Below are positions 34,199 through 41,355 of a stretch of DNA of 64,000 bases, piece after piece. The translations under genes were made by a program, and so were the position numbers. The stretch covers positions 1 to 64,000 of the forward strand of contig JAMCUL010000006.1 in the NCBI GenBank assembly GCA_023381355.1. Reading direction: 5' to 3'. The notes under the pieces are model-generated. The model worked only from the letters and a program-made list of their open reading frames with translations, had not been told where the DNA came from and made no database searches. Source of the stretch: Thermoplasmatota archaeon (GTDB lineage Archaea > Thermoplasmatota > Thermoplasmata > Thermoplasmatales > Thermoplasmataceae). Each line of letters opens with the position of its first letter. Within the stretch, counting starts at the first letter, position 1.

Positions 34199-35023
34199 TT
34201 ACTTTTTCTTCTTCTGCTTTCTGTTTTTCCATTTTGGAAGTCCGGGTGTCAATTTTCTCTTACCTGCTGCAAAGAACAGTAATATCATAACTCCGGCAGC
34301 TAATGCAACAAAGTAGTATATCCAATCGTAGTTTGGTGGATTTCCTACGTAAAAACTGCTCTCATAATTGACGTTAACATTCTTGAAGACAGATGAGTTG
34401 GTTATCCCTACTACAACTGTGTGTTCCCCACCACCGATAAGGTAGTCTGGAACCCTAACACTTACAAGTTCACTCTGGCCTGGAAGTATTTTAGATAACA
34501 CGGTTGTCTTGTTCAGGTTGCCTATCTGGAAATACACCGTCATGTTATAATATGGAACTCCACTCCCATCAGTTACCATAGCATAAAAAACAATCGCTTT
34601 ATAGACGGAAATTGAATATGTAAGTATTTTTTCCACATGCGTACTGCCAAAAGTCGCATCAAGGATTATCATTACGCTGATTGACTGGTTGTCCGCATTA
34701 GGAGCTGTTATATTAAATTCAAAGAAGCCATTTTTTGATGTCTTGTGATCAGGGACCGTTGGACTGAGGCCGATATCATAGTCCGCTCCTACAATCATGG
34801 TTGCCGTGTAATTACTGTAACCACTCGTAGCGGTTACGCATATTTGGAATCTCTGGCTTTCAATAACCTTTGGAACTGTAGGGGTAGGACCATGTCCTAT
34901 GTTAAAGGTTGTTGTTGCATTAAAAGACCCATTTGAAGCGCTAGATTCAGATGCCATAGCAACAGGAATCGCAAAAAGAAGAATTAACACGGACAGTATT
35001 GACAGAGTTTTAATTGAGTTCAT
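34199..35023 (-). CDS. Secreted, C-terminally membrane-anchored beta-sandwich protein
   Basis: Signal peptide, N-glycosylation-sequon-rich ectodomain, one C-terminal TM and Lys-rich tail. Confidence 0.7.
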   Translation of the reverse strand: MNSIKTLSILSVLILLFAIPVAMASESSASNGSFNATTTFNIGHGPTPTVPKVIESQRFQICVTATSGYSNYTATMIVGADYDIGLSPTVPDHKTSKNGFFEFNITAPNADNQSISVMIILDATFGSTHVEKILTYSISVYKAIVFYAMVTDGSGVPYYNMTVYFQIGNLNKTTVLSKILPGQSELVSVRVPDYLIGGGEHTVVVGITNSSVFKNVNVNYESSFYVGNPPNYDWIYYFVALAAGVMILLFFAAGKRKLTPGLPKWKNRKQKKKK

Positions 35024-38000
35024 CTTACCTTCCTCCCCTTAATTGCCACGCCTATGAAGCCAATGACGACCACCAAAACCAGGAATATGATTCCATATTC
35101 GAGAGTAGCGAATGGGTTTCCGGTATAATTAGAAATGATGCCGGGGCCATGAACGTAGTTATATAGACTTGAAAGATTCGGATACTCCACATTAATGGTC
35201 TGATTATGTCCAACCCCATTTTGCTTAATCTGGTAAAAGACGTCAAATTTAGTGAATTGAGATGCTGCAAAGTTCTTCTGGGGAACGATGTTTAGATATA
35301 CAGTGTATGTTTCATTGAACGAAAGATTCACTTCACTGATCTGTTTTCCGCTGATTCCAGTAAATGTTAGATTCACATGCAAGAGTGAGATGTTTACATT
35401 GCTTCCATCGATAGTCATATCCGTGGGAACGCTGAAGTTTACAGTCTCGTTTTCATTTCCGGTATTCCTGAAAACAAGATCGAATGAACCATTCCCATTA
35501 TTATACCCCAGTACTGGACTCTGAACTGTCATGTTGACGCCATAAAAGCCTGTTACGTTTACCTTTACCTTATCCACCGAAGAATATCCATCATAGCTCA
35601 TCATGATAGGCACCATGTTGATTCCGCCAGGAACCCTATAGTTAACGGACATCCTTGCAGAAATGTTTACAGTGTCAGTAATTCCAAAGTTTTTAACTGT
35701 GGTCCTATTGAATACGATCTTCCAGTCTGGAGACCCAGATGAAAGTGATAGATTCACCGGCGTGTTCAACATATTCTTGAGTGTAAAGTTAACTGTAGTG
35801 AACCCGGCTGTCTCATTGAATATTGGCGTTGAACTCTGTGTCAAATTGATGTTGCCGGTAACTTCCTTCGCGAGTATAATCTGTACGTATGATACCTTGT
35901 CTACATCCTTGGTTATGCTACCTTCAAATTTCTGGTAGAATGATATATTTCCGACGTTAAATGAACTTGAAACATATGACTGGAATGTGTAATTTCCTCT
36001 TGGAAGGAGTAACGGCTGTCCATTCGATATAGATGAAATCATCTGTGTAGAACTGCTAATATTAACTCTGTTTGCAGTTTGATACCTGCCGATTGATGTG
36101 TAAACATAGGTATAATATGCAGTCACCAGGTTCATGGAAAAATTAGACGACCCCTCGAATTGCCCTATTGATAAGGTGGTAAGCTGTGCAACCTTCATAT
36201 TCCTGTTATAAGCATAAACAGTAAAACTTCCATTTGCAAGATAGGCTGTGAATGCCCCTGTGCTATTAGAAGTGACTGATTCTATCATTGAGCCATTCTG
36301 GTAAATGGATATATTAGTCGCTGATAGTGGGATTCCGGAAACACGTACAGCACCGTTCACGATTGTATAAAATTGCTTTACTTCCAGCGTAAGTAACATG
36401 GTAGAGTTTTGATTGAGATATTCAGTTATTGTGCCTGTCGAAACATAGAATTCACCAGTGTTGTTCGCGATCTGCTTCTGATATGAAATTTCATAAACAC
36501 CCTTCGGGAGAACGAGGTAAGAGGTAGTCATTATCAAATGTACCTGGGAGTTTGATATGTATATATTTCCTCCACTTATGGAAGTTGAATATGTAAGGGC
36601 AAGAGAATAAGATCTCTGGTAAACTGGATAAAGTGTTGTGTTTGAATTTACAGATATAACCGAGAGATTCGCCTGCCCAAGTTCATTCAAAGCATACAGA
36701 ACATAATTACCGGGGGCGACCTCAGATATGTTTGAGATTGCGGTTGTGTAACTTGAAGTATAGTTGAAAAGTGATGCGTTTATAGCCCCGATAAAAGCTA
36801 CGTGAATCCTGCTCGTGAAGGTAACATTGAAAGTACTCTGATACGAACTAATTGTTATAAGGCTTTGATTATCCAGGACAATCTGGTTACCACCTTCAGT
36901 GTTCATATAATAAGTTCCGACAGGGATAGTGAATGAAGAGGTTCCATTTATAATACTCTCTCTAAAACTATTGCTCGATGACAAATTGAGTGTCCCGTCG
37001 AGTGGGGCTCCACCATTGATTGATATGAAATTGATTGTAACCCTGGTCTTCACAATATTCAAGGGTAGCTGGGAATTCCTGCTGATAATCGTGGTATTTG
37101 ACGAGAACCCTTCTGAAAAAGCCCTTGCAGTAATGTCTGATTGAGTCGAATTGATTATGAAAGTTGCATATCCATTAGATGAAATTGAGGAGGCAGCGAA
37201 TTCAGATCCAAATTGGGAAAGAAATACTACTCCTCCGGATACCGCTGAACTTGATGAGAAGATTCCAGCCACTGAAGGATTGTAAACTCCTACTGAAATG
37301 GCAGTCCCCTTATACATAGGCATTGTTAGCCTGGCTCCATTAGCAACATTGTAAGTTTGAGAAGAATAGTAATTAACACCAACCTTTACTCCCTGAATAT
37401 AGAAATTGTAAGAGAAATTTGAAGGTAAATTAAATGATAATTTCTGTGAGCCGGAAATTGCTTGATTTATGACTACATCAGAATGGGATATATACAGGTT
37501 CCCTGAAAATGAAGATAAATTTGCACCATATGGACTGACATACACGTGTGATGAGCTATATGCGACTAAATTGAATGAACTGTTCTGATAAACGTTTATT
37601 TCATCAAATACTGTGTTATTATGGTATGTGTCATAAACAGTATAAAATCCGGTGTTTATTACTCCACTATAAGAATTTCCGTTCTTCTTCAAAGTTACGG
37701 CATTGGACAAGATCCCATTGCTGTAAATATTTAAGGTATTGCTACCATAATTCTTTACATTTATGGATACATTTGCTCCAGGAACCAACGTAAGATTCAA
37801 TGTTCTGTTCTGGCCCAGTGACGGGAAGGTAATTGTGGAAATTGTACTCACACTATTTCCATCTTTGGCATAGATTGAGTAATTTCCAGAATTTGTATAT
37901 ACATAGGAAAATCCTGAACTATTAGTGTAATAAATTTTATCATCAACTATAATCTGGGCATCCTTGACAGGAATTCCATCCATTATAACTCTGGTCTGCA

Positions 38001-41000
38001 CCAGATTTAGTGGAACCTTTATGTCGTAAATTAATGGTGATCCAGGTGTTAACACATTATCCTGAATGGCTTTGTATACAGTTCCGTTGGAGGTGATTAC
38101 GCTTACAGAATAATTACCCGGTCCAATGTTTGAGGCATTATAAAGCCCATTCCTTATTGTAAAATTGTATTCCTGCCCGTTTGAAATCCGCTTCAACTGA
38201 ACAGTTCCGTTAAGGATCTTCGAAGTATTATATGAATGTGATCCGACTCCGAGTTGCCTGTTTATAGTAACAAAGCCAGAGGAGGTTACATTTGAAATCA
38301 CATAATTTTTAACCACATAATACTGTGGAAGGCCAGTGGTATAATTGAGTTCAAAAGTCTTTCTCTCAGCCTGCTGTCTTGAAATATTTAGACCAAATGC
38401 ATTAAGGATGTTTGCCCCATAAAGTGTCCTTCCATTGAGGGTACCGTCTGAAAACACAAGTGTATCATTTCCGGGGAGGCCTGAAAGATTGTAATAGCCG
38501 TATTTGTTTGTGAGTACAGTCTGATGAGGTATCCCGTATTGATCCAGAATAGTGACCCTTATACCCGATATTGGAACACCAGTTGGTGATTTCACCTGGC
38601 CAGTGATGACTGCTCCAGGGAAGTACCTAAGGATAGGATCAGAACCCTGAATTATAGATGCTGCTGATGGGAATATAACGGATGTACCCTTCTTCTCCTT
38701 TGCATAAGAGTAGGCTTGCTGGAGGGGAATAATCTTGAAGGCGTTTTGATGTGCTGAGGCGTTCTGGTATGGATTATATGGGACACCCTCATAGCATACT
38801 TCAAAATTACTCATATTCCATGCAGGTTGAATTTCATACTGATTTGTTCCAAATGTTAAGCCAGGAACACCGGAACTTTGACCCACTGCAGTCGGAGGTA
38901 AGCCGACTAACGCCCTGTATATTGTCGTGTTATAGAATGCAGGAGTGTAAGTTATTTCGTAATTTGTGGGAACTACATTAGTAGGAGTTTGATTTAAGGG
39001 GTATGTTCCATTGGGAGTCACGGCATATATTTGGTAATACTCATATGGCACAACACCGCCACCCTCTGTCGTATATGAAGGAGTATCTGTCAAGTAAGCT
39101 GGTGCATAGAATATACCAGTATCCAGACCAGACAATGGGAATAAATTATGATCAGTCTGGATGTATTGGATTGACCATCCTGTAGCCTTTTGGACAGCCT
39201 GATAAAGATTTACTATCTCAGGGAGAGATAACTTCGAGGAAAGCTGCCCTTTGACAAGTGCATAATAGGCATTTTGGTTTGATATATTCTTAATGAAAAC
39301 CCCATAGACTGATGAGTTGTCGATTATCCACGGAACAAACTCATGAGGGTTGTTGTATATCTGCTGTATTAGAGACAACTCGTTATTACTCAAGTATTGA
39401 GACATTGCCTGCTTCAATGCCGGAGTATATTGCCCGGAATTCTGGATAAATTCAGCCTGAATTAGTCTTGAAGTCATCAATGATATTATTTGTGACTGGT
39501 TTGTTGAAAGTAAGATCTGTCCGGATATTTGATAAGCCTGCTGAAAATCATCTGCTACTGTTGGGTGCTTACCCTGGTACAATTCCTGAAAACCATAATC
39601 CCACCAATCAACGTATGCAGGTTTCTCCGAAGTAGGTAAGTTAGATTGTTGCGTGGAAAACCAAGTGAAGGATTCAGAGAGAGGACTTGATGAGTTTGTG
39701 ATAAAACTACCAACAGTTCCAAAATAGGCAGACTGGTTTTCCTGGAAAGTTGCTGGCTTTGCGAACGAAGGAAGAGCATTATAAATCTCCTGATTTATCG
39801 GCACTGCGGAATTTGCAGGAACCGCTGTCGACACAACGCCAAGCCCGGATGGAACCAGGAGCGCAAAGACAAGAAGAAGAACAAACAATGCCTGGAGCCA
39901 TTTTATATTACCCTTGAGACCGCCAACTTTCCTAAATGATTTCCTTGCGCTAGCTGAAGCATTGACATTGTCAACCTTCAGGATCGAGGCAAAATAATAA
40001 ATCAAAGCCCCACCCATGATTGCATAGCTTGGTGCTGCAGTCACATTGAACCTTGCTGCAGAGAAACTCATATAAATTGATACACCACTGAATATGATAA
40101 GCAAAAGAAGTGAATCAGTTTTTTCCTTCATGAATTTATAGATAACATACCCAAAGCCGCCTATTCCAAATATAAATTGAGCGACACCAAACCCGGCAAT
40201 ATACTGGCCTAGAGCTGGTGCCTGAGCTTCCGCAATGGTGCTGTATACACGCGTTTTAATGAAGTAGCCTTCTCCAGAGATAATCTCGTGGAATATGTTG
40301 GGAGTAAGGTAATAAGTTGCAAATAGAACAACTGAAACTGAAACGAGAAGAGCGGGGACTGATATTATCCATGGTTTCCTGCCGAATATAGATATGAGGA
40401 GACTTATAAGTATCATTACCACTCCTATCATCAACGGAGGTATAAACCACAAAGATGGAGTATTGTCCGCTGCATAGTAATAATAATAAGCCATCGCGAA
40501 GGAGACGAATACAAATATGGTGCTGATGTATAAGATGTAGCCATTATTTCTACCCATGAAAAGATTTGCAAGTAACTGTATAACAACATAAATGGCTACT
40601 ATGGCGAGAATATATGCATAACCCTGCCATGATAACGCAAGTGCACCAAAGGAAGCTGCGGATAGTAAAGCATACACAGATCCCTTCTTGTTTTCTCTAA
40701 TATAATCCATTAAATCAGGATAATATTGCTTCACCCTGAACAGACTACCAGTTATTATTCTATCCTTGGAAAGGAATTTCACTGCGCGTTCCAGGAAATA
40801 TATAGTGAAAAATGCGAATATGAGCTCAGGCGTGTGCATTCTACCATCAGATAGAATACCTGATGTTAGATTGCTTGGCATCAGAGTATAGAGAATGGCA
40901 CCAATCATTCCAGCTTTTTTGCCTAGGACGCTCTTTCCAAGTAGATAGACGGGAATAATCAGTAGGGCACCGAATACTGCGTCAAACTCCATGAACGAAT

Positions 41001-41355
41001 AGTATGCTGCGTTTGAAGCACTACCGAATATTGGTGCGGTAATTGTTGATATAAACACAATCATCCAATGGAAAAACGGGTTTCTTGGATTATGTGAACC
41101 AATTGGATAATTCAAATTGTACGTATAAAGTAATGATTGGTGATGGGCCAGAATATATTGTATGAATATATAATTAAAGTAAGGGTCACTCCCACCAGAG
41201 AAGTTCGCGAGACCATCAAGAAATGCCTGTCCCCACATAAAGAAATTCCCGAGGAACATATATAATGAGAACAGCATCAGTATTCCCACGAACTCCCAGT
41301 TTCTGCCTAACCACCTTTCCAACCTGTTAATAGATTTGATTTCTTGGAGTTCCAT
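35020..41355 (-). CDS. aglB: AglB/STT3 oligosaccharyltransferase with giant C-terminal ectodomain
   Basis: N-terminal multi-TM GT-C domain, signature YVDWWDYGFQEL, then about 1,300 aa of carboxypeptidase-regulatory-like beta-sandwich repeats and a C-terminal TM. Confidence 0.9.
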   Translation of the reverse strand: MELQEIKSINRLERWLGRNWEFVGILMLFSLYMFLGNFFMWGQAFLDGLANFSGGSDPYFNYIFIQYILAHHQSLLYTYNLNYPIGSHNPRNPFFHWMIVFISTITAPIFGSASNAAYYSFMEFDAVFGALLIIPVYLLGKSVLGKKAGMIGAILYTLMPSNLTSGILSDGRMHTPELIFAFFTIYFLERAVKFLSKDRIITGSLFRVKQYYPDLMDYIRENKKGSVYALLSAASFGALALSWQGYAYILAIVAIYVVIQLLANLFMGRNNGYILYISTIFVFVSFAMAYYYYYAADNTPSLWFIPPLMIGVVMILISLLISIFGRKPWIISVPALLVSVSVVLFATYYLTPNIFHEIISGEGYFIKTRVYSTIAEAQAPALGQYIAGFGVAQFIFGIGGFGYVIYKFMKEKTDSLLLLIIFSGVSIYMSFSAARFNVTAAPSYAIMGGALIYYFASILKVDNVNASASARKSFRKVGGLKGNIKWLQALFVLLLVFALLVPSGLGVVSTAVPANSAVPINQEIYNALPSFAKPATFQENQSAYFGTVGSFITNSSSPLSESFTWFSTQQSNLPTSEKPAYVDWWDYGFQELYQGKHPTVADDFQQAYQISGQILLSTNQSQIISLMTSRLIQAEFIQNSGQYTPALKQAMSQYLSNNELSLIQQIYNNPHEFVPWIIDNSSVYGVFIKNISNQNAYYALVKGQLSSKLSLPEIVNLYQAVQKATGWSIQYIQTDHNLFPLSGLDTGIFYAPAYLTDTPSYTTEGGGVVPYEYYQIYAVTPNGTYPLNQTPTNVVPTNYEITYTPAFYNTTIYRALVGLPPTAVGQSSGVPGLTFGTNQYEIQPAWNMSNFEVCYEGVPYNPYQNASAHQNAFKIIPLQQAYSYAKEKKGTSVIFPSAASIIQGSDPILRYFPGAVITGQVKSPTGVPISGIRVTILDQYGIPHQTVLTNKYGYYNLSGLPGNDTLVFSDGTLNGRTLYGANILNAFGLNISRQQAERKTFELNYTTGLPQYYVVKNYVISNVTSSGFVTINRQLGVGSHSYNTSKILNGTVQLKRISNGQEYNFTIRNGLYNASNIGPGNYSVSVITSNGTVYKAIQDNVLTPGSPLIYDIKVPLNLVQTRVIMDGIPVKDAQIIVDDKIYYTNSSGFSYVYTNSGNYSIYAKDGNSVSTISTITFPSLGQNRTLNLTLVPGANVSINVKNYGSNTLNIYSNGILSNAVTLKKNGNSYSGVINTGFYTVYDTYHNNTVFDEINVYQNSSFNLVAYSSSHVYVSPYGANLSSFSGNLYISHSDVVINQAISGSQKLSFNLPSNFSYNFYIQGVKVGVNYYSSQTYNVANGARLTMPMYKGTAISVGVYNPSVAGIFSSSSAVSGGVVFLSQFGSEFAASSISSNGYATFIINSTQSDITARAFSEGFSSNTTIISRNSQLPLNIVKTRVTINFISINGGAPLDGTLNLSSSNSFRESIINGTSSFTIPVGTYYMNTEGGNQIVLDNQSLITISSYQSTFNVTFTSRIHVAFIGAINASLFNYTSSYTTAISNISEVAPGNYVLYALNELGQANLSVISVNSNTTLYPVYQRSYSLALTYSTSISGGNIYISNSQVHLIMTTSYLVLPKGVYEISYQKQIANNTGEFYVSTGTITEYLNQNSTMLLTLEVKQFYTIVNGAVRVSGIPLSATNISIYQNGSMIESVTSNSTGAFTAYLANGSFTVYAYNRNMKVAQLTTLSIGQFEGSSNFSMNLVTAYYTYVYTSIGRYQTANRVNISSSTQMISSISNGQPLLLPRGNYTFQSYVSSSFNVGNISFYQKFEGSITKDVDKVSYVQIILAKEVTGNINLTQSSTPIFNETAGFTTVNFTLKNMLNTPVNLSLSSGSPDWKIVFNRTTVKNFGITDTVNISARMSVNYRVPGGINMVPIMMSYDGYSSVDKVKVNVTGFYGVNMTVQSPVLGYNNGNGSFDLVFRNTGNENETVNFSVPTDMTIDGSNVNISLLHVNLTFTGISGKQISEVNLSFNETYTVYLNIVPQKNFAASQFTKFDVFYQIKQNGVGHNQTINVEYPNLSSLYNYVHGPGIISNYTGNPFATLEYGIIFLVLVVVIGFIGVAIKGRKVR

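Follow-up and report, generated by a model that had tools for sequence, protein, structure and literature searches.

Why does an enzyme of N-glycosylation carry a giant ectodomain that is itself packed with N-glycosylation sequons? In archaea, AglB is generally regarded as an enzyme with one subunit and a length of about 750-1,000 aa. In the window (the whole 64,000-nucleotide stretch of DNA that was analysed), aglB encodes an oligosaccharyltransferase catalytic subunit of 2,111 aa (35020..41355, minus strand, stop codon included; all features below are on the same strand). The gene is one open frame that starts with ATG and is intact and without interruption in the ORF analysis of the window, and no ORF of at least 100 aa was found on the plus strand opposite it. 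Its coordinates, strand and length agree with those in an earlier note on this DNA. According to a genome search, its product is the sole STT3/AglB homologue in the source genome.

The protein begins with a GT-C multi-pass membrane half (residues 1-520, 39796..41355), recognized by hydropathy and by its profile match to the Archaeoglobus fulgidus AglB structures 5gmy and 3waj, followed by a soluble core that contains the sequon-binding WWDYG motif (residues 521-915, 38611..39795). The extension (residues 916-2085) contains eleven tandem, sequon-rich carboxypeptidase-regulatory/TTR-like beta-sandwich domains, D1-D11 (residues 916-1835, 35851..38610; AlphaFold2, hhalign and sequons), and two CARDB-like domains, N1 and N2 (residues 1836-2055, 35191..35850; hhalign). 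A C-terminal transmembrane helix conserved class-wide (residues 2087-2105, 35041..35097) and a basic tail, KGRKVR, end the protein. The earlier note had thus correctly described a WWDYG-type GT-C enzyme ending in a transmembrane helix, and its repeated units are carboxypeptidase-regulatory-like as it proposed, but they span about 1,170 aa rather than ~1,300 aa. PF13620 (CarboxypepD_reg) matches AglB with 50.8 bits against a cut-off of 32.3, best at residues 917-969 (E 2.2e-13), and D2-D11 were assigned through profile homology to D1 and among themselves. Pairwise hhalign probabilities within D1-D11 are mostly 89-99%, the weakest link to D1 being that of D8, and N1 and N2 are related at 98%. 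AlphaFold2 prediction of the extension with 66 orthologues gave an almost all-beta model with a mean pLDDT of 86.8 and a pTM of 0.51, so that the domains are credible and the model fixes neither their overall arrangement nor any doubling back. A fold search with the extension returned generic Ig-like/beta-sandwich matches with low TM-scores, and therefore no function was read from the fold.

The catalytic motifs are largely recognizable, with one substitution. The AglB profile (A2) matches A. fulgidus AglB (5gmy/3waj) at E 2.6e-37, and PF02516 scores above its cut-off. The first DXD motif is GGSD (residues 54-57, 41185..41196), with Asp57 invariant in the class alignment; the TIXE motif of external loop 5 aligns as TIAE (residues 373-376, 40228..40239); and WWDYG is at residues 584-588 (39592..39606). 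The second DXD position aligns as R-M-H instead of D-H-D (residues 172-174, 40834..40842). It reads R-x-H followed by T-P-E in 22/22 aligned Thermoplasmataceae, so that the Asp metal ligand expected of AglB, STT3 and PglB is replaced in the whole family. For the DK/MI motif, Asp735 is conserved at the likely place and the Lys is absent, in a region too diverged to align with the solved structures. We take the source genome to belong to the same genus as C. divulgatum, Cuniculiplasma. As a sequence-based assignment, the name AglB is kept despite the R-x-H because N-glycosylation has been observed in this genus. In C. divulgatum, N-glycans were found on pilin sequons (PMC12448462).

The whole protein contains 73 N-X-S/T sequons, and their expectation was calculated from composition-preserving shuffles in local 60-aa segments. 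The extension holds 59 sequons against 28.8±4.5 expected (z 6.8), the core 10 against 4.3, and the membrane half 4 against 2.5, which is not significant. Ser or Thr follows Asn at offset +2 in 44% of cases, compared with 14-25% at other offsets, and reversed sequons in residues 916-2085 number 36. As a cytosolic control, 145 ORFs without a membrane helix from the same genome gave 303 observed against 295.9 expected sequons, a ratio of 1.02. These results rule out a composition artefact, and the ectodomain is indeed packed with sequons above background, as the earlier note had claimed. The other large signal-peptide proteins of the genome have observed/expected ratios of 1.7-2.2 (a set drawn from the 64-kb window and ~241 kb of further stretches), which rules out that AglB is uniquely sequon-rich. 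With a ratio of ~2.05, the AglB extension lies where surface proteins of this cell usually lie, above background without being exceptional. The ratio for the extension is 2.09 in the family, 2.25 in the rest of the order and 2.06 in the rest of the class. Within the family the counts stay high while the positions drift, and 20/59 extension sequons are found in at least half of the 22 members. Sequon columns 619, 847 and 963 recur in at least half of the members of every group compared, and the one at N963 is present in 38/38 sequences from the order. Some lineages with intact motifs have no excess, namely genus g81 (0.79) and L126, L129 and L143 (near 1). The strongest excess was seen in an AglB of family f45 (L159), with 98 sequons in the extension where 24.5 are expected (z 17).

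A giant AglB is the rule in the class, not an oddity of the source genome. We found aglB in 32/32 complete genomes of the family, covering 19/19 genera, with most ORFs at ~2,057-2,134 aa, and open frames of ~2,030-2,440 aa predominate in the class. The stretch after WWDYG has a median of 1,531 aa in 66 class sequences (5-95%, 1,479-1,608). The earlier note had allowed for relatives without the extension; when AglB lengths were compared across Thermoplasmata, the extension was found class-wide and co-linear throughout, with homologous pieces across the phylum. This rules out an extension specific to wall-less acidophiles, and the tie to a wall-less archaeon drawn in the earlier note did not hold, as the extension also persists in lineages without sequon excess. 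In the phylum, AglB lengths differ by family: ~1,160-1,430 aa, ~2,300-2,750 aa, and ~3,120-3,260 aa in two families, which we infer are probably Poseidoniales. Homology in the proximal extension domains reaches as far as the AglBs of ~1,160 aa, and the full array and C-terminal helix are found in the long ones. Among the extension domains, D1 is conserved best, and the extension as a whole evolves faster than the core. In Acidiplasma (3/3 genomes; L267, L268, L269), AglB is 1,433-1,454 aa long and is missing ~680 aa from the central part of the extension, while the proximal domains, C-terminal domains and helix are kept. The length of the rod is therefore not essential. We note that aglB of one E-plasma locus (L090) is split into two overlapping frames (profile 7-1199 and 1197-2132), by a sequencing error or a true frameshift. 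We also note that in families f49/f57 (L166, L172, L173, L183, L184), an AglB of ~3,120-3,190 aa is followed by a different gene of ~410 aa.

Directly downstream of aglB lies a gene for a protein of 274 aa (34199..35023), which we call the partner. Its first ATG overlaps the aglB stop codon (ATGA, 35020-35023), an overlap mostly kept in the class, where the two genes adjoin throughout. The partner contains a signal peptide, two beta-sandwiches, the second of which is a CARDB domain, a C-terminal transmembrane helix (residues 233-252, 34268..34327) and a basic tail; class copies are ~260 aa and single-pass, and the source genome has a single copy. Of 64 members of the partner family, 62 match CARDB (PF07705) at E ≤0.1, with a best value of 1.5e-13; the copy in the window has no direct match. 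The CARDB domain of the partner is related to N1 of AglB at 87-90% (hhalign). To avoid circularity, a profile was built from Thermoplasmataceae copies only and run on all ORFs of the other loci. The best match was the ORF directly after aglB in 44/44 class loci with downstream sequence (E 1e-12 to 5e-53), which rules out a chance neighbour. Outside the class, a single locus, in family f39, has an adjacent match (E 1.7e-9), and when 25 genomes from beyond the class were searched genome-wide, one further partner-like match was obtained, in f56, the rest being mostly CARDB-domain matches. The genes upstream of aglB and further downstream of the partner vary. The partner has a sequon ratio of 2.0-2.84, and 1.25 in the family f11 orthologues with lost motifs described below. 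Its fold search returned transglutaminase beta-barrels, which are generic, and oligosaccharyltransferase (OST) subunits were found neither among the PDB profile matches listed nor among the 50 Foldseek matches listed.

One family, f11, which is probably the methanogen family Methanomethylophilaceae, has kept the architecture while losing the catalytic motifs. All complete f11 genomes (36/36) contain an AglB homologue, and no sign of a further AglB/STT3 locus was seen in the f11 genomes searched. Of 22 fully read f11 AglBs, 20 (including L144, L145 and L290-L307) no longer have the second DXD, TIXE or WWDYG, and most of these lack the Asp of the first DXD as well; genus g81 keeps the catalytic motifs. 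The first DXD Asp remains in g91, g86 and L298, and this pattern suggests a stepwise decay. The f11 ORFs are 1,818-2,544 aa long and retain the extension and C-terminal helix, and the partner adjoins aglB in 21/22 loci, the exception being a contig end. In the four pairs compared, dN/dS for whole genes is 0.13-0.49, and each region taken separately stays below 1, indicating purifying selection. That extension and partner are kept where the catalytic motifs decayed points to a structural role separable from catalysis, and, judging from these sequences, the extension seems to serve a function in its own right; a repurposing of the module in f11 alone is a possible alternative to a general non-catalytic role. 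The extension sequon ratio is 1.24 in the motif-dead orthologues, compared with 2.06-2.25 elsewhere, and this drop fits an excess that reflects real glycosylation. The two g81 sequences, with intact motifs, also have no excess, and therefore the drop may predate the loss of catalysis. Because there are motif-intact lineages without excess, most of the link between catalysis and sequons comes from a single clade, and it does not count as independent evidence. The glycosylated surface protein proposed in the earlier note is in part supported. The ectodomain is rich in sequons and attached to the membrane at its two ends, in a genus with an exterior protein layer and pilus N-glycans but no S-layer (PMC12448462), and the excess falls from ~2.1 to 1.24 in motif-dead orthologues, but other surface proteins of the cell carry a comparable sequon load.

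The best explanation, to which we assign a probability of about 0.5 as a whole, is that the source is a Cuniculiplasma-like archaeon whose only AglB, the window protein, is active and bifunctional, serving as oligosaccharyltransferase and as glycosylated envelope scaffold. The membrane half and core would transfer N-glycans. The rod, made up of D1-D11 and N1-N2, would exit the membrane and return to it via the last helix, anchoring the ectodomain at both ends, and may be glycosylated by AglB, either by itself or by neighbouring molecules. Together with the partner, which may bind to AglB, the rod would form a scaffold unit of the glycoprotein layer that covers the S-layer-less cells, and catalysis and scaffold would be separable functions. 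TTR/CARDB-type domains are ~3.5-4 nm long each. Thirteen of them would give a contour length of 45-50 nm, and a rod doubled back would be 20-25 nm high, which would fit an exterior layer of ~20 nm. C. divulgatum has no S-layer and is covered by a dense, unordered exterior protein layer of ~20 nm whose identity is unknown (PMC12448462). Several points stand against a scaffold: a coat needs many copies of AglB, whereas an enzyme could be rare, and both the loss in the middle of the Acidiplasma extension and the motif-intact lineages without sequon excess argue in the same direction. For the class in general, we tentatively suggest that Thermoplasmata AglB may be a two-gene envelope module, a coat building block with a dedicated membrane partner, and that the f11 protein may be a pseudo-oligosaccharyltransferase that survives only structurally.

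The main rival to the bifunctional protein, which we consider rather unlikely, is that the extension and partner are accessory glycosylation machinery that holds or guides substrates near the active site, like the accessory subunits of eukaryotic OST, with incidental sequons. Such a role would suit a single-copy partner gene that overlaps or abuts aglB class-wide, the proximal domains found even in the short AglBs of the phylum, and the conservation of D1. The module is, however, kept in the 20/22 motif-dead f11 orthologues, which makes an accessory role in catalysis alone less likely, and the large natural deletion in Acidiplasma also disfavours it. In eukaryotes, accessory subunits such as OST48/Wbp1 and the ribophorins provide a single-pass beta-sandwich protein that accompanies the catalytic subunit. 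The likeness of the partner to them is functional only, as the matches listed showed neither sequence nor fold homology to known OST subunits. It is improbable, in our view, that common adhesion domains simply accreted onto AglB, with sequons following passively from the extracellular location and the partner being a nearby surface protein with no specific link. It is true that other proteins encoded in these genomes also have TTR/carboxypeptidase-regulatory and CARDB domains, that other surface proteins show an equal sequon excess, and that the extension changes faster than the core, but accretion does not predict a near-constant length and co-linearity over the class, nor a unique partner at the same place with mostly the same ATGA overlap. 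That aglB was misassembled or became fused to a gene for a surface protein in the source genome has next to no probability: no point in its favour was found, and it is already refuted by the same ORF in many independent assemblies, including single-contig genomes.

Comparable arrangements are known from other systems. Pyrococcus AglB likewise has extra units beside its catalytic core, the peripheral units P1/P2; these are one or two units and are not known to carry a sequon array or to return to the membrane. Archaeal S-layer glycoproteins consist of membrane-anchored arrays of beta-sandwiches that are rich in sequons. The window AglB differs from them in that its N-terminal half is an enzyme and that no lattice is known here, C. 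divulgatum having an unordered layer and no S-layer (PMC12448462). A. fulgidus AglB-L (5gmy, 3waj) shares the GT-C half, the first DXD Asp, TIXE and WWDYG, but has 868 aa, with a C-terminal globular domain of only 369 residues (PMC3703281), and its second DXD is D-H-H (PMC8342417), compared with R-M-H in the window. The AglBs of Thermoplasma, Cuniculiplasma and E-plasma are the same gene with the same architecture (orthologues of ~2,060-2,130 aa). Genome papers list Thermoplasmatales AglB as a gene only and describe neither extension nor partner (PMC5155288, PMC10354927), and our literature searches (AglB length, CARDB with AglB, OST with Methanomassiliicoccales), which covered few subscription papers, brought up no earlier account of either feature or of the loss of motifs in f11. 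A whole class with AglBs of 2,000+ aa and a conserved partner, one family of which keeps the architecture after losing the catalytic residues, makes it testable what covers the S-layer-less Thermoplasmatales and whether an archaeal oligosaccharyltransferase has accessory subunits.

Two minor observations concern related proteins. The AglB tails in families f20, f39 and f56 (L132, L157, L165) resemble PGF-CTERM (archaeosortase-type) signals, for example IPGFEAFALLASL...KRR. In the source genome itself, a frame of 1,044 aa (G000:C16:119167-119946, L266) resembles the extension domains (E 6.3e-15) and may encode a paralogous surface protein.
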